From positions 1-64,000 of the forward strand of contig JABYQS010000150.1 in assembly GCA_022592435.1 (NCBI GenBank): 64,000 nucleotides of DNA, in the 5' to 3' direction. Every line of letters starts with the position of its first letter. Position 1 is the first letter of the stretch. This document shows, piece after piece, positions 22,601-54,556 of the stretch. The position numbers and the translations under genes are program-made. Source of the DNA: Cerioporus squamosus (lineage: Eukaryota; Basidiomycota; Agaricomycetes; Polyporales; Polyporaceae). The notes under the pieces were generated by a model, which had not been told where the DNA came from, did not search any database, and saw nothing but the letters and a program-made list of their open reading frames with translations.

Positions 22601-25600
22601 CAGCACACAAGACCGTCACAGAACGGGGTCCGAGCTACATACCATCTCGTCGGCGAGGATACCGTTCAGCTTGTTGTTGTACAAGCTGACCATCCACTGC
22701 AGACCCTTCAGCTGGTAGTCCTTGAGCGTACCGCCGACCAAGATTGACGGCTGGTGCGTGATCTTCTCCTTGATCCGGTGGGCGACAGCGTAGTAGTCGA
22801 GCTTGCCCTTCTCCTCCTCCATGCTGAACGCCTTCGCGCCGAACGTCTCCTCGCTCACCGGGCCCTCCTCCTGCATCATGTCGAACATCGACGAGTCGTG
22901 GCCATCCGCACGCTGCTGCTCGACGACCGCCTGAGCGAGCGAGTCGAGGTACGCGTCCGTCTGCTTCAGGAGGTGCGTGATGCGCGTGTCCTTCGCCGTG
23001 TCGATGAGCTTCATGTACGCCTCCTCGTCGTCGTTCTTGAGCGCCTTGAGACGCTCCTTCGCGAGCCGCTCGATGCGCTTCTGCTCCTCTTTCTCCGTAT
23101 GTGCGTGGAACGAAAGGACGGCCTTTCCGAGGCGCGAGATGCGGTCCTGCGCTGACCGACCGAGGGCGATGATCTCCCGGCCGTGGTTGCAGATGACGCC
23201 GAGCTGCTCGATGTGCTTCTGCTTCGCCCGACGCTCGCGGTCTGCCCGCTGCTTGCGCTCCGCCGCCTCCGTCGCACGGATGTCCCGGAGTTGCACCTTC
23301 CGTGTCCTCCTGAAGTCGGTCCGGTTGAGAGGGAGCAGCGACCCGTGCATGAGACGCTCCGCGATCGACGCACGCATCGCCCGCTGCTTGTCAATGACCC
23401 GCAGCGACTTGAGCTCGATGAGGGCACGGAGCTTGCCGTGCGTGCTCGCAGGTGGGTGCATGAGCTCCAGTGAAGCCTCCGTCGCGTTCTCCTTGTCCTT
23501 GTCGCTGTCGTCGACGAGCATGTTCTCCAGCCCGCCGTCGCCCATCATCGCTGGCATGATCTCCAGCTCACGCATGCGCTGGTCGATGCGGGCGTCGATG
23601 TAAGCGTTCCGCTCCTCGAGCACCTGATGTGGGTCGAGGCCGACGGGCATGATCGACGGAATAATGAGCCGCTGCATTCGTGTTGCCCACACAGCGGGGT
23701 TCACGCTGGGATCGCGCTTCAGATGTGAGAAGGGATGAAGGTACGCGTTGTACGGGTAGATGCCCGAGTCGACGTTGTCCTCCAGGAAGGGTCCCTTCGG
23801 CACCTTGTCGGCGTCGATGGGCATGTCGACGATCTCCTCCTCCTTTACTGTCTCCGGCGCCGGCGTCGCCTCTGCCGTCGAGTGCTCGACACCATTGACT
23901 GGTGTCCCATTCGTGCTCTTGTGGATCTTGACGGCGCTGTCGATGACCCGCCCGTTGACGTCCGGGCCGTGAAGAAGAGTCTGCAGGTCGGGCACCGCCT
24001 GGTTTGGCACGCGTATCGCCTGCTGGATAGTGTCAGGAACGGGCAGACCCCGAGAAATGAGCTTGAAGGCGTGAATCTGTGCACGGAGAGCATTGATCTG
24101 GTCGGAGGTGAAGGATACGGGGGTGTTCGGCGCAGGTGGATATGGCTGGTTGGGTACGGGGCCGGACGTCAGAGCGCTGCCGTTCGCTGTTGGTACACCG
24201 TTCGCCACGGGTGGCATGGAGGCCTGGCCATTGAGCCCTTGATGTGAGTGGTCCACAGCGGCTTGCTCCTCTGGGTAAAGATATGTCAGCATCAAATCGT
24301 CCAGTGTCATGAGACAAGCGCATGATGCGAGGAAGATGGCGAACGCAAGCCAGTATGAACTTGTTGAATGAAAAAGCGATGAAACGGAGTAAGAGGTGTG
24401 AGATACATTGAAGAGAAGGCGACGGACAACTTCGTCAGGGCAAAGGAACCCTCATGACCAACGAACGGGGCGGTTTTCTTGACCCCAGCAGTATAGACGG
24501 CCAAACACGGGTCAGGGTCGGGGCGAAGATTGTGGAAGTAGAGGTTTCCACCCAACCCGACTTCCTCCTTTATCTGCCAGTTCCAGCCGTGATGCATGCG
24601 CTCTGAAGATGTGACCGCCAAGGGCGGTCCATCAAGCTCAAATCGTGATTCAGCTGCATCGAAGTCTGAACCCGTCCTCCCCTCCACTGTGCCCGACCTC
24701 ATGCAGACACCCTGGGGTAGTGTGTGCGACCAACGCCACTTGCGAGAAACAATTCAACAGCGTCATCGTGCACTATGCACGCGCCTCAACATGCAGGATA
24801 TGACGATCAAAAGGTGTTTGTGGAACACGGAGAGGGCAGGACCGAGCCGCGACACCTCTACGAGCTAGAGCATGCCTACAGCCGATACGCCGCGGTGAGG
24901 TCCGCGAGGAGCAATGCGCCGAACGCCATGTCGCTCCGCTCATTTGCATTGGGACGTATAGAAGGGGGAGTGGTCGATAGGTGAACAGCGATGTCCACAG
25001 TCGACAGACTTCCACTTCCACCAGCGTAGTACTCCACCAGCTGTGGCCCGTGTGACACAGTCGCCTCCTCGAAAGAACTCCCGACGTCCGGACAAATCAT
25101 GACAAGCACGATACAAGCACACCGGTCCAGAGTCTTCAGCCGCATCTAGAGGACGCGCATGCCAACATAACAGTCATGGTCTAGATCCGAGATGGAGAGC
25201 AATATGCGCGAAGTCGAAGACTACCGGCGGGCCAGCTTGTGACTGAATATATAGTCTCCGACCTCATGTGCACCTATAAGGTGCCTCGAAGGGGTCCGAG
25301 CTGGCTTCGTGAAGCGCAAGCATGGAACTTATATATGGTTTGGGTAGGGGAAGGCTGAAGCGATACGTGCAGTCGCCACGCTAGATGTGGTCGCCAGATA
25401 GTTTGGCGTGCGTTTCTGATGCCGCCAAAAGGTGTGCTGCCTCCCGAAAAGCTGAAGACCGTACAATGTAGCGGCAAGGGGGTAAGTACGGCGTGCAGCA
25501 CGTATCGCCCCCCGAGCATGCACGACGTGTATCCCAACCATACGACGCAGCCACGGAGATAGGGGAGTATTCTGGAGGATAATGTGGGAGAAAAAGAAGG

Positions 25601-25961
25601 GCACGACGCGAAGGAACGAAGAGGAACGCATGAAGGAAGGGTACGAGGACTTACTTTGCTGCCGCTGGAACTCTGTTATGATCCTGTAGATCTTCGCGAG
25701 CTCCTCCGAAGTCTGGGGTGTGGCGCCGCTAGCTCGAAGCATGTTCGCGCGCTGCGGATGTGGGGGAGGAGGTTAGCATGGGCACGATGGGATGTTGTGA
25801 GGCCCGGAATGGCAGAGAACCGGTTCACGTACCTGGACGAGCTGCTGCATGCGCGCGCGGACGTCGACGCTGCTCATGTTCGGGTGTTGTTGTGCGGGCG
25901 CATTGGCGTATTGCGGGTGGGGGAGAGACTGGGGATTGGGGGCAATGTTGGGGGCGGCCAT
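19642..25961 (-). CDS. STH1: SNF2/STH1 chromatin-remodelling ATPase, full length
   Basis: Catalytic subunit of a SWI/SNF- or RSC-type nucleosome remodeller. Exon 1 (25833-25961) starts [20 protein letters not shown]; exon 2 (25655-25751) holds [20 protein letters not shown]; a 1384-bp intron follows; exon 3 (22643-24270) has the QLQ motif ([20 protein letters not shown]) and a basic HSA helix ([20 protein letters not shown]). Then come the DEXH ATPase ([29 protein letters not shown] split by an intron, [20 protein letters not shown]), the C-lobe ([30 protein letters not shown]), a SnAC-like segment and a C-terminal bromodomain ([40 protein letters not shown]), ending at 19642. Its 5' half (22762 on) is the first member of the tandem array described separately. 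STH1 versus SNF2 assignment is not settled by sequence alone. Confidence 0.93.
24271..25654 (-). other. 1384-bp intron 2 of STH1
   Basis: The donor is GTAAGT directly after RQQ (exon 2 ends at 25655) and the acceptor is TTTACCCAG before GGAGCAAGCC. Phases match (1 nt + 2 nt giving Lys), so the splice is internally consistent. It is over 20 times longer than the usual 50-65 bp introns here. The same intron is present in all four copies. It contains an 89-codon ATG frame (24876-25145) and an unspliced in-frame ATG at 24310, just before exon 3, which could serve as an alternative start ([16 protein letters not shown]). Confidence 0.7.
24876..25145 (-). CDS. Intron-nested 89-codon ORF, hypothetical
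   Basis: An ATG frame inside STH1 intron 2, same strand, reading [20 protein letters not shown] then [20 protein letters not shown]. The first 20 residues resemble a short signal or membrane segment. It stays 89 codons long in all four copies (also 34392-34661, 43932-44201, 53352-53621) with only a few substitutions near the C-terminus. No homolog is known to me. Conservation may simply reflect recent duplication, so the gene call is weak. Confidence 0.2.
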   Translation of the reverse strand: MRLKTLDRCACIVLVMICPDVGSSFEEATVSHGPQLVEYYAGGSGSLSTVDIAVHLSTTPPSIRPNANERSDMAFGALLLADLTAAYRL

Positions 25962-26194
25962 TGCGGGGACGATGGCGGCGACGCGAGGAGTACCGCGTCG
26001 CGCAGATCTCGTGAGTAGACTGCAGGAGTCGCGGCCAGAATCGACGCCCAAAACCACTCGTCCTCCCGCACAGCCATGCGCTGACAAAGCCCCCAAGCTC
26101 GCACAAACAACGACGTCACGTGGCTGGACGCGTCGCGGTTTGTGGCGCGCGGCGACGCGTCTGCGCTCGTTTCACGCCTCTCGCAGTGTCATCG
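25962..26194. promoter_or_regulatory. Upstream region of intact STH1, with E-box and MCB-like sites
   Basis: CACGTG lies at 26117-26122 and ACGCGT at 26128-26133, 150-170 bp upstream of the STH1 ATG. The same pair, six bases apart, occurs in the STH1/KU80 spacer at 54601-54606 and 54613-54618. ACGCGT is the MluI cell-cycle box core bound by MBF-type factors in other fungi, and CACGTG is a bHLH site; binding here is inferred. The sequence is near-identical to copy 4 up to 26075, then diverges but stays alignable for about 75 bp. Confidence 0.5.
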
Positions 26195-29100
26195 ATGGCT
26201 TCTGCGACTCGCCGCCAGCACGGCCTGCCCGCACAAAGTCTGCTACACAGGTCTGTTCACGACGTCGGCTCCCGCTCTCCCTCTCGCTTCTGCCCGTTGT
26301 CCTCCTCTCTCTCCGAGTCTCCCTTCCTGCTTTCTCCCTTGCGCTCACCACGGCAGGAGCCTTCTACTGCGCGCCAAGCCGCACCCGTTGGCCTGTTGCC
26401 GCGAGTGCCCCGCCGCCCCGTCCGCTACGCATACAAGCAGTGCCTGCACCGTGTGCACGCCTCTCTGCGGTCCCCTGCCCTCTGCCCCATACGCGCCTTG
26501 CTCTCTGCCACAACAGCTCGGGCGTCGACATGAACAGAGCATTGATTATCTCCCAGCTGCGACCTCGCGTCGTGTACCGTGCGTCCCGGTACAGCAGACT
26601 GCAGCGCGACCCATGGTCGCTGGATGCAGGTACGTCCCGTCGCCTGGGAGCAAGCGCACGATAAGCTGTCAGGTTAGTAATCCATTGTATGTACAGGTAC
26701 GTGCACGAACGCCAGCGCTGCCTGAATGGTCCTCACATTCCGCCTCGCTCCCTCGCGTTCCACCCTCCCGCCCTCAATAGCACCCTCCTCACGCTCGTCT
26801 GCACTGAGCAAATGCCCCCACTAGCTACAATGCGACCCTATGCGACCACAACCAACCGTCCGCGCTATTGGCCACGCGGTGTGTCAAGGCCATCAGCAAC
26901 TCGAGGTACGCAGTACATGCATATGGAGACAGACTCACCGTGTCGACCTGCGCATGATACCAGCATGGACTACGGCTTGCGCCGTATAGGTGAATGTCCC
27001 TCGGTAGCCTCGGCGAGCGAGCTCAGAGCATCGCCGGCCGTTCTGCGGGCACAGGTATGTCACGACGTCACGACGGGCGAGGACTCACCTCTGCGGCGAG
27101 AGCTGAGACTCGGAGCATGCGGAGCGACGACGCTTGACGCGGTAGGCGAGCCGAGGTGGGGACGGAGGGTGAAGGTGGGCGAGTGTGCGACTGGCGGGCT
27201 CACCTTCTTCGTTATAGCGTCTTCTTCAAGCTTGGATCACGCACGCGCGTGCTCGGATCCCGGAATCTTGAAGTTGCACGGTGCGTTCCAGCACCTGTTG
27301 CGACGACAGGCACGCTCGTCCCTGCATTGCGCACCCCAGGACCGCAGCCTGGGTCCACGGCTGTGCCCTGGTCGCCGAGACCGTGGCGAGGGATCGGACA
27401 GCTCGAGACTCGTTGTGGTAGGTCCGTCCGCGTACCGGCTGAGGCGGGCGCCGCGCATCGAGTTAACCATGCGAAGGCCGAACATGCCGCGCATGGAGTG
27501 TCGTCGCTTCGTAGTAAGTACTTACGTCCCTCCAGACGGGCCGAATGCAATTCGTTCTTGTGCGTCCCGTTGCCGCTGCCCGACCTCCGTGCTCCAACAG
27601 AGCTTGTCTGCTGTCGTGCAGAGAGCAGCGTGAGCGGCCGCTCCGCGCACCAGTACCACCCTGCCGGCCACACGCATACGGGATGTATCATGCGCAACGT
27701 TCAGATCTTCGCAAGCCTGCGACGGCCTGCATGCGCTAGGAAGTGCACCGATGTTCGAGCAGCCGTCCAGAGTCCGTGTGTGGCTCCGTTCGCTGCATCG
27801 AGATGCCGCCGTATGGAAGCTGCACACTGGGCTGCTCGGCCGAGGAGTGCTGCCGATCGACGCGTACAAGAACTACGACCGGTGACAGGAATCATGTCGG
27901 TCGGAGGCGAAGAGGCCCCCCACAGCAGGGGGGGGCATCATCTGTGCATGTGTGCCCTCTTGTTCTTGCTCAGGTCACGCGCGGTGGAAGAGACCTTGAA
28001 CATTCGAGCTGCGACGCGCTGCAGTGTGAGAAACTTGAGATACATCGCGAAGCAGCGGGTTTGCTCGAGAGACAGGATAGCGGGAAGAGATGCTCGGTAG
28101 TTTACAGTAGTGCAAGTAAGCGACCCGACTCGGAGTGCTAGGGAAGACTGCGTCGGCACTGTCCCTGTCAACCAGCGACGCGTCCGCTCGTCGCGCTAGC
28201 GAGGTACCACTCCGCTCTTCTGCCACCACTGGCGGACGAGGTCGCTTCCTATCGCAAAAACACGTCAGCCAACGTACATGGGATAAGATCAGCAGGCCAT
28301 ACCATGCGTCCGATTGATCAACTGCGGGTCGAGTTCGTTGCAAAACGACTCGGATTACAGGCCGTTTGGTCGGTTCAAGCTGTGATTAAGTGCGTCTTCG
28401 CCACGAGCACGATGAAAACTCTCGCGGGAGGCCAGCCTAGCTGCCTACTGCCATACTCCTGGACACGAATGCATGCGAGCTGCGTGGACGGTGATGGCAG
28501 CTCCGTCACCGCGGGCATCTACTCAAGCAAGTGAGCTTCCATATCGCATCGCGTAAGGAGACGGACCACGACTCGGACCGTGACGTACCTCACCCGTCAA
28601 TCTCGTGTGGCGACAGACTGTCCGGGTGTTCGGCAGACAGCCAGAGGAATGTCGGGATGTATGGCGAGCGAAGACGCACCTCCGCGGAGCGAACTTCGCT
28701 CTCGCGAAGCCTGAATGACCGCAAAGCCCGTCGGACGTTCTCCACGTTGTGCATACTGCGAGTCTGCGACCGTGAGCCCGCCATGCTGATGGTTACTTGC
28801 TGCTTGGACCCACGACGCGACCTGGGCAGAAGGAATCCGGCCCCGTAGTCCAGAGTTGCGCAGCCGTGTAGTATGCGAGACACGACTGGGAGTGTACCTC
28901 GCATTTGGATTGATATCATGAATCGGGGTCGGAAGTCGCACGATCTTCGCGAGGACAACGGCTCGCTGTTTGCGGCTTTCGAGTGGACTTGACATCGCGG
29001 CCTTCGGCGCAGGCTAAGCCATGCGCATGCAAAAGGTCAGCAAGCTCGAAGCAACTCAGCAACTTGCAGACACTGCGCCAACCTGAGGTCCTGAACAGAG

Positions 29101-31920
29101 TGTTATTGTCTTGAGTTCTGCGAACATACGTCCCAGTGATCCGATGCTTCCTGCGTCCAATTGTCCTACATAGATATCACGAATTGTTTAGCTTAGATCT
29201 CTGGTTAACCACGAGCGGGTACCTTCACATGGCCAGAATACTGTTGCCAGGTGTGAACCGAAGAATTGCGGGGCTTCGCGGCGAGTACGCACACCCTTTG
29301 TGATGTACGTCCTGACCATGATTCGAGCCGAATGGCCTGCAGAATCCAACAGCGCTCACGGAATCAAAAGCACGAGTCTGTACGGGAATGCTACGGGGTA
29401 CCCGGCCGATGCTGCCGGTGCCATGTGCATGAAGGAAGTCAGCGAGCTCAACTAGACCGGAGGACGCGCTAACGTGAACAGGACTTTCTCCTGAGCTTGA
29501 TGCTTCTGCCATGATATTATGAGTTCGCGCTGCTTGCTTGCAGGTCGTCACTGAGGAAAGCGAACCCTCAGCAGTGTATAAAGGAAGGATATTGACTCGC
29601 GTGCGCACCCGATGTTAGTCTTGGCCGGAACGTCCCCATGCGGCAGTCAAGGTGTCGCAGAACTTGATTTCGCAGCCGGTACGGTGGACCACCAGACATG
29701 CTTGTATGATTTGTTGCCGAGCTGAGAGAAGCGATCTTCTCGCAAGTACCAAATTGCGACCATCCCGATTCCCGAGTTGGCAGTCTCCGTGTCTTCGTCC
29801 CTTCGAACCCAGTGCATGCCGCACGATTGCCCTCTGCTCGTTCTGACCGTGCTCTCCCAGGTCGGTTGCATCTAGCGGATCCTCTGGTTCGGGTGGTCCC
29901 TGCAAGACGTCTGGTACATGAGTGGTGGAAAGTTAGCACAATGGTACGCCGAGAGCATACCTGATGAGAATTGCTTCGTTGCGTATTTGACCCGAAGGAC
30001 ATGTACATAGAGTTAGTGTCTGGTGCCTGTGATTGGTCAAGAGGTGGGTAAGCGATGTTGCGCGTAGTACGTACTGGACCTCAAGGCTGTTTCGGGAACG
30101 GAGGGTCGTCACTTGGAGCGCACACCGTGACGCTCTCAGCTCGGCTGTCGCCTTCTCCTTCAAGTTGCCCGGCCGTCGCTCTCGCAAGCCACTGGCAGCT
30201 GCTCCTGGCCATGTCCCTTCCTCGAGCCATCGCGTCTGTGTGGCCTGTATGACGGTCGCCGTAGCCGCCAGAACGAGCGCGTACCAAGGTGAGAACCGTC
30301 CCGGAATGCAGCATTGGAAATACGCCAGAAATGAGCAGACTCGGAATGCGTTCCTGGTACGAAAGATCAGTCCGCACGAAGCGATGTTGCGCGTAGAGAC
30401 CGTAGGAACCTCCTACAGCGTGTGCGCTCCCAGCCTCCCAGCACTAGCACGGCAATAGCCTCCCGACACTTGCTCTGGTCTTGTTCTATCTCCCTGGCAG
30501 TCGCACCCAGCGGTCGGACGTCCAATCCCTCAAACTGCTTTCATGTGACGAGGCTCGTCTGCGGCTTGGAGGCATGGGATGTGTCAACCGCGGGAGCTGA
30601 GTATGGACGAGTGCATACTTGCAAGAGTATCGACCTGAGCCATGCGGGTAGGCTGCTGAAACGAGGAAGAGCGCACTTCCATGGTTGGTACGCGAGCTTG
30701 AGATGAATTTTCCGCAGTCTGGCTTAGTTGCAATAGAAGCAAGTGACGTTGCGCCCACAGACCTGTCAATGGTTCGGGATGGCCTGACCACTCGAAGTCT
30801 TCCATTCGAGTTTATCCTCTGGACCTCACGAGACAATCGCTCCCACACTCCCTTCACTTTGCTCTCCCATCTAGTCGCTACCCCGCTAGCGCAACTGCTT
30901 CCATCCTCGCTGTCGTCTCTCTCGACGATCTGCTGCTATCAAGGCTCTTTGCCCCGTCGCGACCGTCCCACGAGCCAGCAGATCCCGGAGAAGGAGGCGG
31001 TAAGGCAAGAGATGTCTCCGTCGTGGAGACCGCGCTGGCCGTCGGAGCTACATAGCCCAGTGAGTACACGACCAAGTCGACGCGCTGCGCGCATACGTAC
31101 CTCCGGCCGCCGGAGACCTCTGGGTTGGACAGAGGCGCCGCAGTGGTGCTGCCGAGAGGGTTTCCAGGTCTCGGTTTGCATTGTCTTTCGGCCGCGTCAC
31201 GGAAAACTGGTCCCTGTCGCATTGTGTGATTATGGCAAACCTTTCCCTGGTTTCTCGTAACAAGCGGGGGCCACGAGCTGCTGGAACTTGAGGGGCTAGG
31301 ACGGTCGGGCTCGGGGGATCCGTAGACTTGCCGTTTGTATTACTTAGCTCGTCTTCGCCGCGGTCATGGTCGTCGGGCCGAGTCGAGATTGCTGACGTGC
31401 TGTGCAACTCAAGCGCGAACGTACTACACTTCCCCGTTTTGGCTTCGTACTCGGAGCGTTCCTGGTGCGTCGAACCCGAGCTTGATGCAGGCGAGAAGGG
31501 TCGGAAGCGATGTGAATCATATTCATGTCCGCACGCGTACTACTACAGGCGCGGGGTATCCCGCGAGCTAGACAGCGGCTACGTGTGGCTAACGACAGCT
31601 TCCGAAGTCGAGAATGCACCGTGCCAGGCGGTTCGAAGCCGAGTCCGAAGGACCACGGCGAACTCGCGCAGCCCACAGCCCACAGCCCTCGACAATCCCC
31701 ACCTACCGTCGTCCTGTCCCGGCGTGGTGGCGCAGACCGTCTGGACGCAGGAGGCCAAAGAACAGCTCGACCTACTCAAGTCCACGTGAAGTGGCGAGAG
31801 CGGAAGCCCGTCGTGCGCAGACGAGCCCGTCCGCGCTGTACAACACCACAAGAAAGACGCACCTTCTCGAATGAACCTCGCGCCCCGCCCCCTGCGACCA
31901 ACCCCAGGAAACCCACCCCC
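26195..31920. other. Spacer of unit 1, no recognised gene
   Basis: About 5.7 kb carrying many overlapping frames on both strands, none of a known family. Possible exons: ATG at 26195 (+) reading MASATRRQHGLPAQSLLHR to a GTCTGT donor, continuing in frame after CACGGCAG (about 26356) for some 90 codons; and a 127-codon frame at 29225-29608 (-). No transposase, reverse transcriptase, LTR or terminal inverted repeat is visible. The 18-mer AAGCGATGTTGCGCGTAG occurs twice (about 30051 and 30381). A G8 homopolymer near 27930 grows to G12 and G11 in units 2 and 3. The stretch 28.9-30.7 kb is almost identical in all three spacers. Confidence 0.5.
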
Positions 31921-34900
31921 AGAACACCCGCCTACAGAACACCCACCTGCAGAACACCCACCTGCAGAACACCCGCCTACAGAACACCCGCCTACAGAAC
32001 ACCCGCCTACAGAACACCCGCCTACAGAACACCCACCTGCAGAACACCCACCTGCAGAACACCCGCCTACAGAACACCCGCCTACAGAACACCCGCCTAC
32101 AGAACACCCGCCTACAGAACACCCACCTGCAGGAAACACTCTAAGGTCGAGAATCCTGCTCTGGACGGAAGTATTCGCCTGCCCAGAGCGGACGTCTGCG
32201 AGCCCGCGCCCGACCCGACGCATCCTGCGAACAGTCCGATGGACCACGCACCTCTCAGCCGACGCATGCCGCCGGTTCTTCTCCTTGATCCGGTGGGCGA
32301 CAGCGTAGTAGTCGAGCTTGCCCTTCTCCTCCTCCATGCTGAACGCCTTCGCGCCGAACGTCTCCTCGCTCACCGGGCCCTCCTCCTGCATCATGTCGAA
32401 CATCGACGAGTCGTGGCCATCCGCACGCTGCTGCTCGACGACCGCCTGCGCGAGCGAGTCGAGGTACGCGTCCGTCTGCTTCAGGAGGTGCGTGATGCGC
32501 GTGTCCTTCGCCGTGTCGATGAGCTTCATGTACGCCTCCTCGTCGTCGTTCTTGAGCGCCTTGAGACGCTCCTTCGCGAGCCGCTCGATGCGCTTCTGCT
32601 CCTCTTTCTCCGTATGTGCGTGGAACGAAAGGACGGCCTTTCCGAGGCGCGAGATGCGGTCCTGCGCCGACCGACCCAGGGCGATGATCTCCCGGCCGTG
32701 GTTGCAGATGACGCCGAGCTGCTCGATGTGCTTCTGCTTCGCCCGACGCTCGCGGTCTGCCCGCTGCTTACGCTCCGCCGCCTCCGTCGCACGGATGTCC
32801 CGGAGCTGCACCTTCCGTGTCCTCCTGAAGTCGGTCCGGTTGAGAGGGAGCAGCGACCCGTGCATGAGACGCTCCGCGATCGACGCACGCATCGCCCGCT
32901 GCTTGTCAATGACCCGCAGCGACTTGAGCTCGATGAGGGCACGGAGCTTGCCGTGGGTGCTCGCAGGAGGGTGCATGAGCTCCAGCGAAGCCTCCGTCGC
33001 GTTCTCCTTGTCCTTGTCGCTGTCGTCAACGAGCATGTTCTCGAGACCACCGTCGCCCATCATCGCCGGCATGGTCTCCAGCTCACGCATGCGCTGGTCG
33101 ATGCGGGCGTCAATGTACGCGTTCCGCTCCTCGAGCACCTGGTGTGGGTCGAGGCCGACGGGCATTATCGACGGGATGATCAGCCGCTGCATTCGTGTTG
33201 CCCACACAGCGGGGTTTACGCTGGGGTCGCGCTTGAGATGTGAGAAAGGGTGGAGGTACGCGTTGTACGGGTAGATTCCCGAGTCGACGTTGTCCTCCAG
33301 GAAGGGTCCCTTCGGCACCTTGTCGGCGTCGATGGGCATGTCGACGATCTCCTCCTCCTTTACTGTCTCCGGCGCCGGTGTGGCCTCTGCCGTCGAGTGC
33401 TCGACACCATTGACCGGTGTCCCATTCGTGCTCTTGTGAATCTTGACGGCGCTGTCGATGACCCGCCCGTTGACGTCGGGACCGTGAAGAAGAGTCTGCA
33501 GGTCGGGCACCGCCTGATTTGGCACGCGTATCGCCTGCTGGATAGTGTCAGGGACGGGGAGACCCCGAGAGATGAGCTTGAAGGCGTGAATCTGTGCACG
33601 GAGAGCATTGATCTGGTCGGAGGTGAAGGATACGGGGGTGTTCGGCGCAGGTGGATATGGCTGATTGGGTACGGGGCCGGACGTCAGAGCGCTACCGTTC
33701 GCTGTTGGTACACCGTTCGCCACGGGTGGCATGGAGGCCTGGCCATTGAGCCCTTGATGTGAGTGGTCCACAGCGGCTTGCTCCTCTGGGTAAAGATATG
33801 TCAGCATCAAATCGTCCAGTGTCATGAGACAAGCGCATGATGCGAGGAAGATGGCGAACGCAAGCCAGTATGAACTTGTTGAATGGAAAAGCGATGAAAC
33901 GGAGTAAGAGGTGTGAGATACATTGAAGAGAAGGCGACGGACAACTTCGTCAGGGCAAAGGAACCCTCATGACCAACGAACGGGGCGGTTTTCCTTGACC
34001 CCAGCAGTATAGACGGCCAAACACGGGTCAGGGTCGGGACGAAGATTGTGGAAGTAGAGGTTTCCACCCAACCCGACTTCCTACTTTATCTGCCAGTTCC
34101 AGCCGTGATGCATGCGCCCTGAAGATGTGACCGCCAAGGGCGGTCCATCAAGCTCAAATCGTGATTCAGCTGCATCGAAGTCTGAACCCGTCCTCCCCTC
34201 CAATGTGCCCGACCTCATGCAGACACCCTGGGGTAGTGTGTGCGGCCAACGCCACTTGCGAGAAACAATTCAACAGCGTCATCGTGCACTATGCACGCGC
34301 CTCAACATGCAGGATATGAAGATCAAAAGGTGTTTGTGGAACACGGAGAGGGCAGGACCGAGCCGCGACACCTCTACGAGCTAGAGGATGCCTACAGCCG
34401 ATACGCCGCGATGAGGTCCGTGAGGAGCAATGCGCCGAACGCCATGTCGCTCCGCTCATTTGCATTGGGACGTATAGAAGGGGGAGTGGTCGATAGGTGA
34501 ACAGCGATGTCCACAGTCGACAGACTTCCACTTCCACCAGCGTAGTACTCCACCAGCTGTGGCCCGTGTGACACAGTCGCCTCCTCGAAAGAACTCCCGA
34601 CGTCCGGACAAATCATGACAAGCACGATACAAGCACACCGGTCCAGAGTCTTCAGCCGCATCTAGAGGACGCGCATGCCAACATAACAGTCATGGTCTAG
34701 ATCCGAGATGGAGAACAATATGCGCGAAGTCGAAGACTACCGGCGGGCCAGCTTGTGACTGAATGTAGTCTCCGACCTCATGTGCACCTATAAGGTGCCT
34801 CGAAGGGGTCCGAGCTGGCTTCGTGAAGCGCAAGCATGGAACATATATATGGTTTGGGTAGGGGAAGGATGAAGCGATACGTGCAGTCGCCACGCTAGAT

Positions 34901-35474
34901 GTGGTCGCCAGATAGTTTAGCGTGCGTTTCTGATGCCGCCAAAAGGTGTGCTGCCTCCCGAAAAGCTGAAGACCGTACAATGTAGCGGCAAGGGGGTAAG
35001 TACGGCGTGCAGCACGTATCGCCCCCCGAGCGTGCACGACGTGTATCCCAACCATACGACGCAGCCACGGAGATAGGGGAGTATTCTGGAGGATAATGTG
35101 GGAGAAAAAGAAGGGCACGACGCGAAGGAACGAAGAGGAACGCATGAAGGAAGGGTACGAGGACTCACTTTGCTGCCGCTGGAACTCTGTTATGATCCTG
35201 TAGATCTTCGCGAGCTCCTCCGAAGTCTGGGGTGTGGCGCCGCTAGCTCGAAGCATATTCGCGCGCTGCGGATGTGGGGGAGGAGGTTAGCATGGGCACG
35301 ATGGGATGTTGTGAGCCCCGGAGTGGCAGAGACCGGTTCACGTACCTGGACAAGCTGCTGCATGCGCGCGCGGACGTCGACGCTGTTCATGTTCGGGTGT
35401 TGTTGTGCGGGCGCATTGGCGTATTGTGGGTGGGGGAGAGACTGGGGATTGGGGGCAATGTTGGGGGCGGCCAT
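31579..35474 (-). pseudogene. Truncated STH1 copy 2, chimeric 3' end
   Basis: Exon 1 (ATG at 35474), exon 2, the long intron and exon 3 match the intact gene closely. Protein changes are few (for example Ser to Asn in exon 1, Ile to Thr in [10 protein letters not shown]), while many DNA differences sit at third codon positions. Homology stops at 32277 after HRIKEK, upstream of the whole ATPase. The frame continues through the spacer end (NRRHASAERCVVHRTVRRMR) and the minisatellite, read as 14 pentapeptides of [10 protein letters not shown] type, to a stop at 31579. The predicted chimera is about 800 residues with QLQ and HSA regions and no ATPase or bromodomain. Splice sites look usable and it has its own promoter copy. 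Whether it is expressed or inert is unknown. Confidence 0.8.
31921..32130. repeat. 15-bp minisatellite, 14 units (unit 1/2 junction)
   Basis: Two variants of one 15-mer: P = AGAACACCCGCCTAC and B = AGAACACCCACCTGC. The order is P BB PPPP BB PPPP B, so a higher-order six-mer (BBPPPP) is repeated twice. It lies 146 bp before the truncated STH1 copy. Because the period is 15, the reading frame is kept; the minus strand reads Val/Ala-Gly-Gly-Cys-Ser repeats. Confidence 0.97.
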
Positions 35475-41400: not shown

Positions 41401-41461
41401 CGCACCTTCTCGAATGAACCTCGCGCCCGCCCCCTGCGACCAACCCCAGGAAACCCACCCC
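35475..41461. other. Promoter copy and spacer of unit 2, no recognised gene
   Basis: It carries the CACGTG site at 35630-35635 and the same frames as spacer 1. Compared with spacer 1 it has small indels and substitutions in the left 2.9 kb (for example a 9-bp difference near 36240 and a duplicated ACGTCAGG segment near 36584). It is almost identical to spacer 1 between about 38.5 and 40.2 kb and differs mainly by single-base indels at 40.2-41.4 kb. Around 40587-41069 (-) there is a 160-codon frame rich in Ser/Pro (GKSTDPPSPTRPSPSSSSSS) that is broken in unit 1 and intact in units 2 and 3; its status is unclear. Confidence 0.45.
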
Positions 41462-44400: not shown

Positions 44401-45006
44401 GGGAAGGATGAAGCGATACGTGCAGTCGCCACGCTAGATGTGGTCGCCAGATAGTTTAGCGTGCGTTTCTGATGCCGCCAAAAGGTGTGCTGCCTCCCGA
44501 AAAGCTGAAGACCGTACAATGTAGCGGCAAGGGGGTAAGTACGGCGTGCAGCACGTATCGCCCCCCGAGCATGCACGACGTGTATCCCAACCATACGACG
44601 CAGCCACGGGATAGGGGAGTATTCTGGAGGATGATGTGGGAGAAAAAGAAGGGCACGACGCGAAGGAACGAGAGAGGAACGCATGAAGGAAGGGTACGAG
44701 GACTTACTGCTGCCGCTGGAACTCTGTTATGATCCTGTAGATCTTCGCGAGCTCCGAAGTCTGGGGTGTGTGGCGCCGCTAGCTCGAGCATGTTCGCGCG
44801 CTGCGTGGGAGGGAAGGAGGTAGCCATGGGCACGATGGGATGTTGTGAGGCCCGGAATGGCAGAGACCGGTTCACGTACCTGGACAGCTGCTGCATGCGC
44901 GCGCGGACGTCGACGCTGTTCATGTTCGGGTGTTGTTGTGCGGGCGCATTGGCGTATTGTGGGTGGGGAGAGACTGGGGATTGGGGGCAATGTTGGGGGC
45001 GGCCAT
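41123..45006 (-). pseudogene. Truncated STH1 copy 3, with disrupted 5' exons
   Basis: Exon 3 is open from about 43330 to the junction at 41818 and runs on through the minisatellite to 41123, as in copy 2. Exons 1 and 2, however, carry several small indels relative to the other copies (single-base losses near 44885 and 44967, changes near 44755, 44770 and 44788), so [14 protein letters not shown] shifts frame after residue 14. The exon 3 sequence is a mosaic: copy-2-like below about 42723 and copy-1/4-like above about 42758. Either decay or consensus error could explain the indels. Without the 5' exons only the internal ATG before exon 3 could give a product. Confidence 0.8.
41462..41671. repeat. 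15-bp minisatellite, 14 units (unit 2/3 junction)
   Basis: Same two 15-mer variants and exactly the same order (P BB PPPP BB PPPP B) as the array at 31921-32130, followed by the same GGAAACACTCTAAGG flank. Confidence 0.97.
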
Positions 45007-48000
45007 TGCGGGGACGATGGCGGCGACGCGAGGAGTACCGCGTCGCGCAGATCTCGTGAGTAGACTGCAGGAGTCGCGGCCAGAATCGACGCCCAGAACC
45101 ACTCGTCCTCCCGCACAGCCATGCGCTGACAAAGCCCCCAAGCTCGCACAAACAACGACGTCACGTGGCTGGACGCGTCGCGGTTTGTGGCGCGCGGCGA
45201 CGCGTCTGCGCTCGTTTCACGCCTCTCGCAGTGTCATCGATGGCTTCTGCGACTCGCCGCCAGCACGGCCTGCCCGCACAAAGTCTGCTACACAGGTCTG
45301 TTCACGACGTCGGCTCCCGCTCTCCCTCTCGCTTCTGCCCGTTGTCCTCCTCTCTCCGAGTCTCCCTTCCTGCTTTCTCCCTTGCGCTCACCACGGCAGG
45401 AGCCTTCTACTGCGCGCCAAGCCGCACCCGTTGGCCTGTTGCCGCGAGTGCCCCGCCGCCCGTCCGCTACGCATACAAGCAGTGCCTGCACCGTGTGCAC
45501 GCCTCTCTGCGGTCCCCTGCCCTCTGCCCGATACGCGCCTTGCTCTCTGCCACAACAGCTCGGGCGTCGACATGAACAGAGCATTGATCATCTCCCAGCT
45601 GCGACCTCGCGTCGTGTACCGTGCGTCCCGGTACAGCAGACTGCAGCGCGACCCATGGTCGCTGGATGCAGGTACGTCCCGTCGCCTGGGAGCAAGCGCA
45701 CGATAAGCTGTCAGGTTAGTAATCCATTGTATGCACAGGTACGTGCACGAACGCCAGCGCTGCCTGAATGGCAGCCTCATCACATTCCGCCTCGCTCCCT
45801 CGCGTTCCACCCTCCCGCCCTCAATAGCACCCTCCTCACGCTCGTCTGCACTGAGCAAATGCCCCCACTAGCTACAATGCGACCCTATGCGACCACAACC
45901 AACCGTCCGCGCTATTGGCCACGCGGTGTGTCAAGGCCATCAGCAACTCGAGGTACGCAGTACATGCATATGGAGACCAGACTCACCGTGTCGACCTGCG
46001 CAGGATACCAGCATGGACTACGGCTTGCGCCGTATAGGTAAATGTCCCTCGGTAGCCTCGGCGAGCGAGCTCAGAGCATCGCCGGCCGTTCTGCGGGCAC
46101 AGGTATGTCACGACGTCAGGACGTCACGACGGGCGAGGACTCACCTCTGCAGCGAGAGCTGAGACTCGGAGCATGCGGAGCGACGACGCTTGACGCGGTA
46201 GGCGAGCCGAGGTGGGGACGGAGGGTGAAGGTGGGCGAGTGTGCGACTGGCGGGCTCACCTTCTTCGTTATAGCGTCTTCTTCAAGCTTGGATCACGCAC
46301 GCGCGTGCTCGGATCCCGGAATCTTGAAGTTGCACGGTGCGTTCCAGCACCTGTTGCGACGACAGGCACGCTCGTCCCTGCATTGCGCACCCCAGGACCG
46401 CAGCCTGGGTCCACGGCTGTGCCCTGGTCGCCGAGACCGTGGCGAGGGATCGGACAGCTCGAGACTCGTTGTGGTAGGTCCGTCCGCGTACCAGCTGAGG
46501 CGGGCGCCGTGCATCGAGTTAACCATGCGAAGGCCGAACATGCCGCGCATAGAGTGTCGTCGCTTCGTAGTAAGTACTTACGTCCCTCCAGACGGGCCGA
46601 ATGCAATTCGTTTCTTGTGCGTCCCGTTGCCGCTGCCCGACCTCCGTGCTCCAACAGAGCTTGTCTGCCGTCGTGCAGAGAGCAGCGTGAGCGGCCGCTC
46701 CGCGCACCAGTACCACCCTGCCGGCCACACGCGTACGGGATGTATCGTACGCAATGTTCAGATCTTCGCAAGCCTGCGACGGCCTGCATGCGCTAGGAAG
46801 TGCACCGATGTTCGAGCAGCCGTCCAGAGTCCATGTGTGGCTCCGTTCGCTGCATCGAGATGCCGCCGTATGGAAGCTGCACACTGGGCTGCTCGGCCGA
46901 GGAGTGCTGCCGATCGACGCGTACAAGAACTACGACCGGTGACAGGAATCATGTCGGTCGGAGGCGAAGAGGCCCCCCACAGCAGGGGGGGGGGGTATCA
47001 TCTGTACATGTGTGCCCTCTTGTTCTTGCTCAGGTCACGCGCGGTGGAAGAGACCTTGAACATTCGAGCTGCGACGCGCTGCAGTGTGAGCAGCTTGAGA
47101 TACATCGCGAAGCAGTGGGTTTGCTCGAGAGACAGGATAGCGGGAAGAGATGCTCGATAGTGTACAGTAGTGCGAGTAAGCGACCCGACTCGGAGTGCTA
47201 GGGAAGACTGCGTCGGCACTGTCCCTGTCAACCAGCGACGCGTCCGCGAGTCGTCGCGCTAGCGAGGTACCACTCCGCTGTTCTGCCACCACTGGCGGAC
47301 GAGGTCGCTTCCTATTGCAAAAGCAAGTCAGCCAACGTACAGGGGATAAGATCAGTAGGCCATACCATGCGTCCGATTGATCAACTGCGGGTCGAGTTCG
47401 TTGCAAAACGACTCGGATTACAGGCCGTTCGGTCGGTTCAAGCTGTGATTAAGTGCGTCTTCGCCACGAGCACGATGAAAACTCTCGCGGGAGGCCAGCC
47501 TAGCTGCCTACTGCCATACTCCTGGACACGAATGCATGCGAGCTGCGTGGACGGTGATGGCAGCTCCGTCACCGCGGGCATCTACTCAAGCAAGTGAGCT
47601 TCCATATCGCATCGCGTAAGGAGACGGACCACGACTCGGACCGTGACGTACCTCACCCGTCAATCTCGTGTGGCGACAGACCAGTGTCCGGGTGTTCGGC
47701 AGACAACCAGAGGAATGTCGGGATGTATGGCGAGCGAAGACGCACCTCCGCGGAGCGAACTTCGCTCTCGCAAAGCCTGAATGACCGCAAAGCCCGTCGG
47801 ACGTTCTCCACGTTGTGCATACTGCGAGTCTGCGACCGTGAGCCCGCCATGCTGATGGTTACTTGCTGCTTGGACCCACGACGCGACCTGGGCAGAAGGA
47901 ATCCGGCCCCGTAGTCCAGAGTTGCGCAGCCGTGTAGTATGCGAGACACGACTGGGAGTGTACCTCGCATTTGGATTGATATCATGAATCGGGGTCGGAA

Positions 48001-51000
48001 GTCGCACGATCTTCGCGAGGACAACGGCTCGCTGTTTGCGGCTTTCGAGTGGACTTGACATCGCGGCCTTCGGCGCAGGCTAAGCCATGCGCATGCAAAA
48101 GGTCAGCAAGCTCGAAGCAACTCAGCAACTTGCAGACACTGCGCCAACCTGAGGTCCTGAACAGAGTGTTATTGTCTTGAGTTCTGCGAACATACGTCCC
48201 AGTGATCCGATGCTTCCTGCGTCCAATTGTCCTACATAGATATCACGAATTGTTTAGCTTAGATCTCTGGTTAACCACGAGCGGGTACCTTCACATGGCC
48301 AGAATACTGTTGCCAGGTGTGAACCGAAGAATTGCGGGGCTTCGCGGCGAGTACGCACACCCTTTGTGATGTACGTCCTGACCATGATTCGAGCCGAATG
48401 GCCTGCAGAATCCAACAGCGCTCACGGAATCAAAAGCACGAGTCTGTACGGGAATGCTACGGGGTACCCGGCCGATGCTGCCGGTGCCATGTGCATGAAG
48501 GAAGTCAGCGAGCTCAACTAGACCGGAGGACGCGCTAACGTGAACAGGACTTTCTCCTGAGCTTGATGCTTCTGCCATGATATTATGAGTTCGCGCTGCT
48601 TGCTTGCAGGTCGTCACTGAGGAAAGCGAACCCTCAGCAGTGTATAAAGGAAGGATATTGACTCGCGTGCGCACCCGATGTTAGTCTTGGCCGGAACGTC
48701 CCCATGCGGCAGTCAAGGTGTCGCAGAACTTGATTTCGCAGCCGGTACGGTGGACCACCAGACATGCTTGTATGATTTGTTGCCGAGCTGAGAGAAGCGA
48801 TCTTCTCGCAAGTACCAAATTGCGACCATCCCGATTCCCGAGTTGGCAGTCTCCGTGTCTTCGTCCCTTCGAACCCAGTGCATGCCGCACGATTGCCCTC
48901 TGCTCGTTCTGACCGTGCTCTCCCAGGTCGGTTGCATCTAGCGGATCCTCTGGTTCGGGTGGTCCCTGCAAGACGTCTGGTACATGAGTGGTGGAAAGTT
49001 AGCACAATGGTACGCCGAGAGCATACCTGATGAGAATTGCTTCGTTGCGTATTTGACCCGAAGGACATGTACATAGAGTTAGTGTCTGGTGCCTGTGATT
49101 GGTCAAGAGGTGGGTAAGCGATGTTGCGCGTAGTACGTACTGGACCTCAAGGCTGTTTCGGGAACGGAGGGTCGTCACTTGGAGCGCACACCGTGACGCT
49201 CTCAGCTTGGCTGTCGCCTTCTCCTTCAAGTTGCCCGGCCGTCGCTCTCGCAAGCCACTGGCAGCTGCTCCTGGCCATGTCCCTTCCTCGAGCCATCGCG
49301 TCTGTGTGGCCTGTATGACGGTCGCCGTAGCCGCCAGAACGAGCGCGTACCAAGGTGAGAACCGTCCCGGAATGCAGCGATTGGAAATACGCCAGAAATG
49401 AGCAGACTCGGAATGCGTTCCTGGTACAAAAGATCAGTCCGCACGAAGCGATGTTGCGCGTAGAGACCGTAGGAACCTCCTACAGCGTGTGCGCTCCCAG
49501 CCTCCCAGCACTAGCACGGCAATAGCCTCCCGACACTTGCTCTGGTCTTGTTCTATCTCCCTGGCAGTCGCACCCAGCGGTCGGACGTCCAATCCCTCAA
49601 ACTGCTTTCATGTGACGAGGCTCGTCTGCGGCTTGGAGGCATGGGATGTGTCAACCGCGGGAGCTGAGTATGGACGAGTGCATACTTGCAAGAGTATCGA
49701 CCTGAGCCATGCGGGTAGGCTGCCGAAACGAGGAAGAGCGCACTTCCATGGTTGGTACGCGAGCTTGAGATGAATATCCGCAGTCTGGCTTAGTCGCAAT
49801 ACTTAGAAGCAAGTAATGTTGCGCCCACAGACCTGTCAAATGGTTCGGGATGGCCTGACCACTCGAAGTCTTCCATTCGAGTTTATCCTCTGGACTTCAC
49901 GAGACAATCGCTCCCACACTCCCTTCACTTTGCTCCCCCATCTAGTCGCTACCCCTGCTAGCGCAACTGCTTCCATCCTCGCTGTCCTCTCTCTCGACGA
50001 TCTTGCTGCTATCAAGGCTCTTCAGTGCCCCGTCGCGACCGTCCCACGAGCCAGCAGATCCCGGAGAAGGAGGCGGTAAGGCAAGAGATGGTCTCCGTCG
50101 TGGAGACCGCACTGGCCGTCGGAGCTACATAGCCCAGTGAGTATACGACCAAGTCGACGCGCTGCGCGCATACGTACCTCCGGCCGCCGGGAGACCACTG
50201 GGTTGGACAGAGGCGCCGCAGTGGTGCTGCCGAAGAGGGTTTCCAGGTCTCGGTTTGCATTGTCTTTCGGCCGCGTCACGGAAAACTGGTCCCTGTCGCG
50301 TTGTGTGATTATGGCAAACCTTTCCCTGGTTTCTCGTAACAAGCGGGGGCCACGAGCTGCTGGAACTTGAGGGGCTAGGACGGGTCGGGCTCGGGGGATC
50401 CGTAGACTTGCCGTTTGTATTACTTAGCTCGTCTTCGCCGCGGTCATGGTCGTCGTGGCCGAGTCGAGATCGCTGACGTGCTGTGCAACTCAAGCGCGAA
50501 CGTACTACACTTCCCCGTTTTGGCTTCGTACTCGGAGCGTTCCTGGTGCGTCGAACCCGAGCTTGATGCAGGCGAGAAGGGTCGGAAGCGATGTGAATCA
50601 TATTCATGTCCGCACGCGTACTACTACAGGCGCGGGGTTATCCCGCGAGCTAGACAGCGGCTACGTGTGGCTAACGACAGCTTCCGAAGTCGAGAATGCA
50701 CCGTGCCAGGCGGTTCGAAGCCGAGTCCGAAGACCACGGCGAACTCGCGCAGCCCACAGCCCACAGCCCTCGACAATCCCACCTACCGTCGTCCTGTCCC
50801 GGCGTGGTGGCGCAGACCGTCTGGACGCAGGAGGCCAAAGAACAGCTCGACCTACCTCAAGTCCACGTGAAGTGGCGAGAGCGGAAGCCCGTCGTGCGCA
50901 GACGAGCCCGTCCGCGCTGTACAACACCACAAGAAAGACGCACCTTCTCGAATGAACCTCGCGCCCGCCCCCTGCGACCAACCCCAGGAAACCCACCCCC
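45007..51000. other. Promoter copy and spacer of unit 3, no recognised gene
   Basis: Near-identical to spacer 2. Small unit-specific differences occur at 49207 (C to T), 49380, 49428 and in the stretch 49775-50100. The CACGTG site is at 45162-45167. No gene recognised. Confidence 0.45.
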
Positions 51001-54000
51001 AGAACACCCGCCTACAGAACACCCACCTGCAGAACACCCGCCTACAGAACACCCGCCTACAGAACACCCACCTGCAGAACACCCACCTGCAGAAAACACT
51101 CTAAGGTCGAGAATCCTGCTCTGGACGGAAGTATTCGCCTGCCCAGAGCGGACGTCTGCGAGCCCGCGCCCGACCCGACGCATCCTGCGAACAGTCCGAT
51201 GGACCACGCACCTCGCAGCCGACGCATGCCGCCGGTTCTTCTCCTTGATCCGGTGGGCGACAGCGTAGTAGTCGAGCTTGCCCTTCTCCTCCTCCATGCT
51301 GAACGCCTTCGCGCCGAACGTCTCCTCGCTCACCGGGCCCTCCTCCTGCATCATGTCGAACATCGACGAGTCGTGGCCATCCGCACGCTGCTGCTCGACG
51401 ACCGCCTGAGCGAGCGAGTCGAGGTACGCATCCGTCTGCTTCAGGAGGTGCGTGATGCGCGTGTCCTTCGCCGTGTCGATGAGCTTCATGTACGCCTCCT
51501 CGTCGTCGTTCTTGAGCGCCTTGAGACGCTCCTTCGCGAGCCGCTCGATGCGCTTCTGCTCCTCTTTCTCCGTATGTGCGTGGAACGAAAGGACGGCCTT
51601 TCCGAGGCGCGAGATGCGGTCCTGCGCTGACCGACCGAGGGCGATGATCTCCCGGCCGTGGTTGCAGATGACGCCGAGCTGCTCGATGTGCTTCTGCTTC
51701 GCCCGTCGCTCGCGGTCTGCCCGCTGCTTACGCTCCGCCGCCTCCGTCGCACGGATGTCCCGGAGCTGCACCTTCCGTGTCCTCCTGAAGTCGGTCCGGT
51801 TGAGAGGGAGCAGCGACCCGTGCATGAGACGCTCCGCGATCGACGCACGCATCGCCCGCTGCTTGTCAATGACCCGCAGCGACTTGAGCTCGATGAGGGC
51901 ACGGAGCTTGCCGTGCGTGCTCGCAGGAGGGTGCATGAGCTCCAGTGAAGCCTCCGTCGCGTTCTCCTTGTCCTTGTCGCTGTCGTCGACAAGCATGTTC
52001 TCCAGCCCGCCGTCGCCCATCATCGCCGGCATGGTCTCCAGCTCACGCATGCGCTGGTCGATGCGGGCGTCGATGTAAGCGTTCCGCTCCTCGAGCACCT
52101 GATGTGGGTCGAGGCCGACGGGCATGATCGACGGAATAATGAGCCGCTGCATTCGTGTTGCCCAAACAGCGGGGTTCACGCTGGGATCGCGCTTCAGATG
52201 TGAGAAGGGATGAAGGTACGCGTTGTACGGGTAGATGCCCGAGTCGACGTTGTCCTCCAGGAAGGGTCCCTTCGGCACCTTGTCGGCGTCGATGGGCATG
52301 TCGACGATCTCCTCCTCCTTTACTGTCTCCGGCGCCGGCGTCGCCTCTGCCGTCGAGTGCTCGACACCATTGACTGGTGTCCCATTCGTGCTCTTGTGGA
52401 TCTTGACGGAGCTGTCGATGACCCGCCCGTTGACGTCGGGGCCGTGAAGAAGAGTCTGCAGGTCGGGCACCGCCTGGTTTGGCACGCGTATCGCCTGCTG
52501 GATAGTGTCAGGGACGGGCAGACCCCGAGAAATGAGCTTGAAGGCGTGAATCTGTGCACGGAGAGCATTGATCTGGTCGGAGGTGAAGGATACGGGGGTG
52601 TTCGGCGCAGGTGGATATGGCTGGTTGGGTACGGGGCCGGACGTCAGAGCGCTGCCGTTCGCTGTTGGTACACCGTTCGCCACGGGTGGCATGGAGGCCT
52701 GGCCATTGAGCCCTTGATGTGAGTGGTCCACAGCGGCTTGCTCCTCTGGGTAAAGATATGTCAGCATCAAATCGTCCAGTGTCATGAGACAAGCGCATGA
52801 TGCGAGGAAGATGGCGAACGCAAGCCAGTATGAACTTGTTGAATGAAAAAGCGATGAAACGGAGTAAGAGGTGTGAGATACATTGAAGAGAAGGCGACGG
52901 ACAACTTCGTCAGGGCAAAGGAACCCTCATGACCAACGAACGGGGCGGTTTTCCTTGACCCCAGCAGTATAGACGGCCAAACACGGGTCAGGGTCGGGAC
53001 GAAGATTGTGGAAGTAGAGGTTTCCACCCAACCCGACTTCCTACTTTATCTGCCAGTTCCAGCCGTGATGCATGCGCCCTGAAGATGTGACCGCCAAGGG
53101 CGGTCCATCAAGCTCAATTCGTGATTCGGCTGCATCGAAGTCTGAACCCGTCCTCCCCTCCAATGTGCCCGACCTCATGCAGACACCCTGGGGTAGTGTG
53201 TGCGGCCAACGCCACTTGCGAGAAACAATTCAACAGCGTCATCGTGCACTATGCACGCGCCTCAACATGCAGGATATGAGGATCAAAAGGTGTTTATGGA
53301 ACACGGAGAGGGCAGGACCGAGCCGCGACACCTCTACGAGCTAGAGGATGCTTACAGCCGATACGCCGCGGTGAGGTCCGTGAGGAGCAATGCGCCGAAC
53401 GCCATGTCGCTCCGCTCATTTGCATTGGGACGTATAGAAGGGGGAGTGGTCGATAGGTGAACAGCGATGTCCACAGTCGACAGACTTCCACTTCCACCAG
53501 CGTAGTACTCCACCAGCTGTGGCCCGTGTGACACAGTCGCCTCCTCGAAAGAACTCCCGACGTCCGGACAAATCATGACAAGCACAATACAAGCACACCG
53601 GTCCAGAGTCTTCAGCCGCATCTAGAGGACGCGCATGCCAACATAACAGTCATGGTCTAGATCCGAGATGGGGAGCAATATGCGCGAAGTCGAAGACTAC
53701 CGGGCCAGCTTGTGACTGAATATATAGTCTCCGACCTCATGTGCACCTATAAGGTGCCTCGAAGGGGTCCGAGCTGGCTTCGTGAAGCGCAAGCATGGAA
53801 CTTATATATGGTTTGGGTAGGGGAAGGCTGAAGCGATACGTGCAGTCGCCACGCTAGATGTGGTCGCCAGATAGTTAAGCGTGCGTTTCTGATGCCGCCA
53901 AAAGGTGTGCTGCCTCCCGAAAAGCTGAAGACCGTACAATGTAGCAGCAAGGGGGCATGTACGGCGTGCAGCACGTATCGCCCCCCGAGCATGCACGACG

Positions 54001-54442
54001 TGTATCCCAACCATACGACGCAGCCACGGAGATAGGGGAGTATTCTGAAGGAGGATGTGGGAGAAAAAGAAGGGCACGACGCGAAAGGAAGAGGAGGGGT
54101 GCATGAAGGAAGAGTACGAAGAAACGAGGACTCACTTTGCTGCCGCTGGAACTCTGTTATGATCCTGTAGATCTTCGCGAGCTCCTCCGAAGTCTGGGGT
54201 GTGGCGCCGCTAGCTCGAAGCATATTCGCGCGCTGCGGATGTGGGGAAGGAGGTGAGCATGGGCACGATGGGATGTTGTGAGGCCCGGAATGGCAGAGAA
54301 CCGGTTCACGTACCTGGACGAGCTGCTGCATGCGCGCGCGGACGTCGACGCTGTTCATATTCGGGTGTTGTTGTGCGGGCGCATTGGCGTATTGTGGGTG
54401 GGGGAGAGACTGGGGATTGGGGGCAATGTTGGGGGCGGCCAT
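50857..54442 (-). pseudogene. Truncated STH1 copy 4, adjacent to KU80
   Basis: Exon 1 (ATG at 54442), exon 2 and exon 3 are intact and are closest to the full-length gene in sequence. Homology ends at 51237. The frame continues in the same phase through NRRHASAARC and six Gly-Gly-Cys-Ser-Val/Ala pentapeptides to a stop at 50857, giving a predicted product of about 700 residues with QLQ and HSA regions only. It is driven by what looks like the original STH1/KU80 divergent promoter, so it is the copy most likely to be transcribed. It lacks the ATPase, SnAC and bromodomain parts. Confidence 0.8.
51001..51090. repeat. 15-bp minisatellite, 6 units (unit 3/4 junction)
   Basis: Order P B PP BB of the same two 15-mers, against 14 units at the other two junctions. 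Contraction by eight units keeps the frame of the chimeric STH1 tail. The 3' flank has GAAAACAC instead of GGAAACAC. Confidence 0.97.
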
Positions 54443-54556
54443 TGCGGGGACGATGGCGGCGACGCGAGGAGTACCGCGTCGCGCAGATCTCGTGAGTAGA
54501 CTGCAGGAGTCGCGGCCAAAATCGACGCCCAAAACAACTCGTCCTCCCGCACAGCC
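51237..54556. repeat. Tandem unit 4, partial (3.3 kb)
   Basis: Contains only the STH1 5' part and the first 114 bp of promoter. Near-identity with units 1-3 ends at 54556 (equivalent to 26075 in unit 1). The next 80 bp are alignable but diverged, and then the KU80 promoter and gene follow instead of the spacer. Confidence 0.93.

Follow-up and report, generated by a model that had tools for sequence, protein, structure and literature searches.

An apparent tandem array of partial STH1 genes at the STH1-KU80 locus of Cerioporus squamosus

Results and Discussion

Organization of the locus

The window analysed here, bases 1-64000 of the 93,110-bp contig C58 from Cerioporus squamosus, carries, as assembled, a head-to-tail array in which the 5' part of a gene for the chromatin remodeller STH1/SNF2 recurs between the full-length STH1 gene and KU80; the assembly comprises 54 Mb in 988 contigs. 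Self-alignment of the window places the unit starts at 22762, 32277, 41818 and 51237 (start-to-start spacing 9515, 9541 and 9419 bp), and the long pairwise alignments between units have 96.5-98.6% identity. Because of this length and identity, a chance origin of the repeats is excluded. These repeats of about 9.5 kb had been described at the same starts in a sequence-only reading of the locus and are borne out by the self-comparison, with the correction that the last copy ends at 54635 instead of 54556.

According to the unit alignment, each unit consists of two blocks: block A (~3.4 kb) is the STH1 part on the minus strand, and block B (~6.1 kb) has no recognisable gene. The final repeat, copy 4, holds block A only, giving the order STH1 3' half-A1-B-A2-B-A3-B-A4-KU80 with four A and three B blocks. 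The earlier picture of a unit made of the STH1 half alone therefore has to be extended, as about two thirds of it, block B, is not STH1. Nor does every unit represent a duplicate: A1 sits inside the full-length gene, so that there are three extra truncated copies and not four. The main parts of the locus are:

19645 (approximate)-25961, minus strand: full-length STH1/SNF2 remodeller gene (PDB matches, exon model, bromodomain end by eye)
22762-26154, minus strand: block A copy 1, within the full-length gene (unit alignments)
26155-32276, no strand: block B copy 1, 6.1 kb (nine open frames tested against Pfam, coding scan)
32277-35667, minus strand: block A copy 2, truncated STH1 with ATG at 35474 (exons 1-3 open in frame)
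35668-41817, no strand: block B copy 2, a recombinant between the outer B copies, with a switch at ~38242-39677 (site patterns)
41818-45199, minus strand: block A copy 3, truncated STH1 with ATG at 45006 (open exon 3; exons 1-2 interrupted in the assembled sequence)
45200-51236, no strand: block B copy 3 (unit alignment)
51237-54635, minus strand: block A copy 4, truncated STH1 with ATG at 54442 (short head-to-head spacing to KU80)
54853-58720, plus strand: KU80 gene (ATG and N-terminus by eye, core match to KU80/XRCC5, Ku_PK_bind domain; 3' end approximate, from open frames)

The junction TCTTCTCC is identical at 32277, 41818 and 51237, and the 45 bp preceding it show one substitution, in copy 4. 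The repeats thus run head to tail and share a single junction sequence, as in an array formed by unequal crossover. On the other side, the KU80 ATG at 54853 lies head-to-head with the STH1 ATG of copy 4, about 410 bp apart. Only A4 retains this short spacing, together with a native-looking short promoter, and we infer that it preserves the original arrangement. Over its last 113 aligned bases, the edge of A4 that faces KU80 is 13-14% diverged from the B-linked edges of the other A copies, which suggests that the duplication is not recent. The adjacency to KU80 was confirmed beside the last copy; it appears to reflect ordinary gene order and not to hint at function.

The STH1 gene and its truncated copies

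In copy 1, STH1 starts with the ATG at 25961; exon 1 extends to 25833, exon 2 from 25751 to 25655, and exon 3 begins at 24270, while the exons for the ATPase and the bromodomain reach down to ~19645 (bromodomain end read by eye). Exon 3 and the downstream exons match STH1/SNF2 chains in a PDB sequence search, and the order of exons 1-3 is the same in protein P0008 of Trametes cingulata. Among the best 120 of 626 matches, the closest named proteins come from Dichomitus squalens and Trametes cingulata (77% identity), and identity to other database proteins reaches 90%. The full-length frame is off by one base at a DEAH-like motif near 22222 (22180-22300), which is probably a base-calling error, since STH1 is expected to be essential. 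The long second intron and the frame that crosses the junction are located as follows:

24271-25654, minus strand: STH1 intron 2, with a length of 1384 bp in copy 1 and retained in each of the four copies (exon model, copy alignment)
31582-33825, minus strand: 748-aa open frame running from STH1 exon 3 (QLQ, HSA) through the junction into block B and its minisatellite (frame reading, Pfam)

At the position of intron 2, the open frame P0002 of a relative suggests a short intron, compared with the 1384 bp found here, and no repeats of at least 12 bp were found inside it. No further copy of the A part at 24400-25400 (intron 2 region) was found elsewhere in the assembly. Likewise, the QLQ domain is present in all four A copies and was found nowhere else in the assembly, in a search in which exon 3 as a whole was not used as DNA.

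Block A comprises ~193 bp of promoter followed by STH1 codons 1-578. The truncation point lies 40 residues before ATPase motif I, in agreement with the earlier claim of a partial STH1 cut just before the ATPase domain with QLQ and HSA kept. In the frame of copy 2, Pfam detects HSA (73 bits) and QLQ (55 bits) and no SNF2 ATPase; the truncated copies accordingly lack the ATPase part. Copies 2 and 4 have an uninterrupted frame through exons 1-3 that gives 578 STH1 residues each, and the promoter word GTCACGTGG is retained in 4/4 copies. That the repeats come "with its promoter" holds only for the first ~193 bp or so above the ATG; the full-length gene now faces block B. In copy 3, exons 1-2 (45006 to ~44700) carry dense substitutions and small indels, either decay or a low-quality patch, next to a clean exon 3. 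Past the junction, B adds 232 residues to the reading frame in copy 2, 231 in copy 3 and 126 in copy 4; these tails vary in sequence and length and disagree beyond the minisatellite.

Block B

Apart from a 15-bp minisatellite near its end, block B has few features:

31898-32132, no strand: 15-bp minisatellite in B copy 1, ~15 copies (repeat scan)
41461-41673, no strand: 15-bp minisatellite in B copy 2, ~14 copies (repeat scan)
50978-51094, no strand: 15-bp minisatellite in B copy 3, ~7 copies (repeat scan)

None of the nine tested B frames has a Pfam match with E <0.01 (a few at E 0.017-0.07 are far below the cut-offs) or a replication or mobility domain. A small codon-usage scan in 500-bp steps, for which six segments of the window served as training set, showed no coding signal in B, and neither Rfam matches nor tRNAs were found in the window. 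A transposon or virus as origin of B was rejected, as no other copy of 26140-31900 was found in the assembly, the nine tested frames gave no transposase-type domain, and inverted repeats in B have at most 20 nt. When B was compared with the KU80 side for concealed similarity, only the common 155-bp edge and one chance-level match (E 0.5) appeared.

In this context, a 9.5-kb A+B circle could have entered the chromosome at STH1 through a single crossover, with multiple copies integrated, as a variant of the initial duplication described below. Integration of this kind is expected to produce the order A-B-A-B-A-B-A, and no other home of B was found in the assembly. Nevertheless, no separate B contig was found and the nine tested B frames are free of replication and mobility domains, so that we consider such a circle highly improbable.

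Coding constraint in exon 3

The protein code of the A copies is better preserved than expected. Over 1507 bp, exon 3 of the four copies has no indel and no stop, compared with 10 indel events in intron 2. Its 47 variable sites comprise 45 synonymous and 2 nonsynonymous ones, the latter private to copies 1 and 4 (binomial P ~3e-26 against no constraint), and the pairwise ratio of nonsynonymous to synonymous divergence (dN/dS) is 0.00-0.06. Between copies 1 and 2, the synonymous divergence (dS) amounts to 0.12 corrected, or 39 of 353 synonymous sites (0.11) uncorrected. Much of it falls into one tract:

32956-33694, minus strand: diverged tract in copy 2, corresponding to 23441-24179 of copy 1 (site counts between copies)

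Within this tract, copy 2 differs from copy 1 by 34 synonymous and 1 nonsynonymous sites and from copy 4 by 32 and 1; in 23430-23700, a stretch chosen after viewing the data, corrected dS between copies 2/3 and 1/4 is 0.30. For comparison, the highest uncorrected synonymous difference is 0.089 among 34 allelic open frames of at least 170 codons, taken from allele pairs with pieces <700 bp or in reverse orientation left out; many of these are surely not genes, and pooled they have 101 synonymous and 103 nonsynonymous differences. A Fisher test (P 0.028) is not relied on here, as 46:2 had been entered for 45:2 and compared with 64:14 from 7 of the 34 frames picked by eye. Since the tract exceeds the allelic maximum while the adjoining intron differs by just 1-3%, it has its own history: it diverged either in the truncated copies under constraint at the protein level, or in the lineage of a functional allele from which it was then copied in. 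A second STH1-like gene as donor was rejected, as the search of the assembly found QLQ in the four copies only.

The truncated copies are thus either selected themselves or exchanged with functional alleles. In the first case, the ATPase-less fragment of QLQ and HSA would be kept by purifying selection and act on the remodeller or its actin-related protein (Arp) subunits, either as a decoy or in regulation. Besides the site counts of exon 3, this fits with the open exons 1-3 in copies 2 and 4, the common promoter word, the good matches to the HSA and QLQ models and the finding that the most diverged tract (dS 0.30) occurs only in truncated copies 2 and 3, neither of which carries an exon-3 amino-acid change of its own. 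HSA domains are reported to bind Arps in yeast remodellers (Szerlong 2008, as cited in PMC11377671), and PMC11377671 also locates the domains through which Swi2 and Sth1 bind activators close to HSA, in the N-terminus. By analogy with this binding, titration of Arps, as proposed in the sequence-only reading, is a plausible hypothesis that would be compatible with the preserved HSA-coding sequence. However, copy 3 has disrupted exons 1-2 in the assembled sequence, the tails beyond the junction vary so that the C-terminus is not conserved, and the intron beside the diverged tract differs by only 1-3%. For this last reason, the tracts were probably moved by conversion, and the constraint may date from the time spent in a full-length allele. 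Taken together, we regard function of the truncated copies as unlikely. Still less probable is its extended form, in which a long-lived array kept by selection would serve as a dosage-variable decoy for HSA partners, with unequal crossover altering the copy number and thereby tuning or, in some crosses, poisoning remodelling.

We think that exchange with functional alleles is the simplest cause of the preserved code; such exchange and constraint on the truncated copies would give the same dN/dS pattern in exon 3.

Mosaic structure and proposed origin of the array

The B copies show a recombinant site pattern. Counted outside the minisatellite, they differ at 49 substitution sites, of which copy 2 shares 33 with copy 3 (26488-28706) and the other 16 with copy 1 (30142-32255). 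Copy 2 has no private substitution among the 49, and its own-pattern differences are 1-bp indels only. The middle B is therefore a recombinant of the two outer ones. A left part from B2 and a right part from B1 is exactly the order expected for the gain product of one unequal crossover in a two-unit array. In block A, the copies form a mosaic of shared site patterns, which fits repeated exchange. A2 and A3 differ by 58 substitutions (~1.7%), one at 22934 and the rest at 23702-25809, with gaps beyond in exons 1-2. Because of these 58 sites they are not a single sequence used twice; if the crossover joined homologues, they would be alleles.

Our preferred explanation, a tentative one, is a real array at the STH1-KU80 locus that arose through unequal crossover and whose code is maintained by exchange. 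In a first step, the 5' part of STH1 and its proximal promoter would have been duplicated together with the 6.1-kb spacer B to give A-B-A between STH1 and KU80. In a second step, recombination between misaligned repeats would have added units, leaving the observed recombinant B in the middle. Finally, crossover and gene conversion may keep trading tracts between functional alleles of STH1 and its truncated copies, and it is this exchange that is proposed to keep exon 3 coding. The differing minisatellite lengths of the B copies support this explanation. Each extra copy could encode the predicted QLQ and HSA residues without ATPase, plus a B-derived tail. If made, such a truncated protein could compete for HSA partners, although a by-product seems to us more probable than a device shaped by selection. 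Counting this explanation and the functional alternative together, the chance that the tandem array is physically real is somewhat better than even.

Heterozygosity and the possibility of an assembly effect

Several points weigh against the preferred explanation. First, the search of the assembly with B (26140-31900) found no other copy and hence no source of this block. Second, exchange must account for a dS of 0.11 (0.12 corrected), and of 0.30 in the tract, compared with the allelic maximum of 0.089. Third, the source strain is heterozygous, as seen from seven allele-like contig pairs (eight stretches) with 0.3-2.7% substitutions in their aligned parts; these pairs were taken from equal or similar matches in PF00118 and PF00271 searches, are not exhaustive and do not represent a rate, and the two highest values include inverted or overlapping pieces. 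Overall divergence among the array copies is roughly allelic, and with a heterozygous strain the copy number of the array may be inflated. Fourth, small-indel errors in the assembly are likely, given eleven 1-bp gaps confined to B copy 1 (9 of the 11 where copy 1 otherwise equals copy 2), the frame break near 22222 and the disruption of exons 1-2 in copy 3, all of which could also be real. In a heterozygous source with such errors, interleaved haplotypes could yield the same mosaic, and an assembler loop through the identical middle of B mimics the same order of parts.

On this basis, each nucleus of a dikaryon may have fewer units (e.g. A-B-A), and the assembler would have chained both haplotypes by switching where B is identical between them; one truncated copy may then be real, three not. 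In line with this, the switch in the middle B falls into the substitution-free stretch 28706-30142, and no second allele of the STH1-KU80 locus was found on another contig of the assembly, where the search gave two weak matches (C246, 74% over ~265 bp; C798, 82% over 60 bp). The 1-bp gaps and the frame break resemble base-calling errors, and divergent haplotypes are a well-documented cause of false duplications (PMC9516828). On the other hand, one looped sequence does not explain the 58 differences between A2 and A3, so that two separate chimeric switch points would be needed; furthermore, the window has no N gaps and its parts stand in the order of the gain product of a real crossover. We therefore consider an assembly effect a serious possibility, if rather an unlikely one.

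Relation to known systems

The preferred explanation of an array built by unequal crossover can be compared with several known systems. Head-to-tail orientation, a recombinant middle unit, similar interiors and a diverged edge are shared with arrays formed by unequal crossover; in contrast to these, the unit here is a partial gene plus a long geneless-looking spacer, and the array ends in a full-length essential gene. The Drosophila Sdic cluster is an example of partial or chimeric gene duplicates, in which a gene part joined to unrelated sequence is likewise arrayed; the 3' tail at the present locus is partly minisatellite and not conserved. Compared with the STH1/SNF2 ATPases of RSC and SWI/SNF, the truncated copies carry QLQ, HSA and the post-HSA region but neither the ATPase domain nor the bromodomain. 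False heterotype duplications, as described in PMC9516828, resemble our case in the heterozygous source and in copies at about allelic divergence, whereas the order of a crossover product, the gap-free sequence and one tract above allelic divergence set it apart.

Unequal-crossover arrays and partial gene duplicates are already known, and the present array, if real, is a further instance; a literature search with partial coverage (titles and abstract openings) found no published account of such an array. If real, it amounts to a naturally occurring dosage series for an essential remodeller's N-terminal half, placed between the gene and its head-to-head neighbour KU80, and separates full-length STH1 from the promoter region presumably once shared with KU80. 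It would then offer a direct way to ask whether fragments with HSA are tolerated or put to use. Should the array be an assembly effect, the locus is a useful example of a dikaryon yielding a convincing array with a middle unit that mimics a crossover product.

Further observations

The left flank of the locus (1-13583) is an ordinary neighbourhood, in which 7 of 9 scanned frames match Pfam, including F-box/LRR, Nup93/Nic96, SRP68 and ribosomal S17e pieces. Elsewhere in the assembly, small allele-like contigs include C572, C455, C905, C692, C624, C965 and C722, and such alternative-allele contigs may inflate gene counts based on this assembly. Finally, Helicase_C matches with equal or near-equal scores occur in several places (C18, C195, C171), a group that is perhaps a helicase-bearing mobile element.

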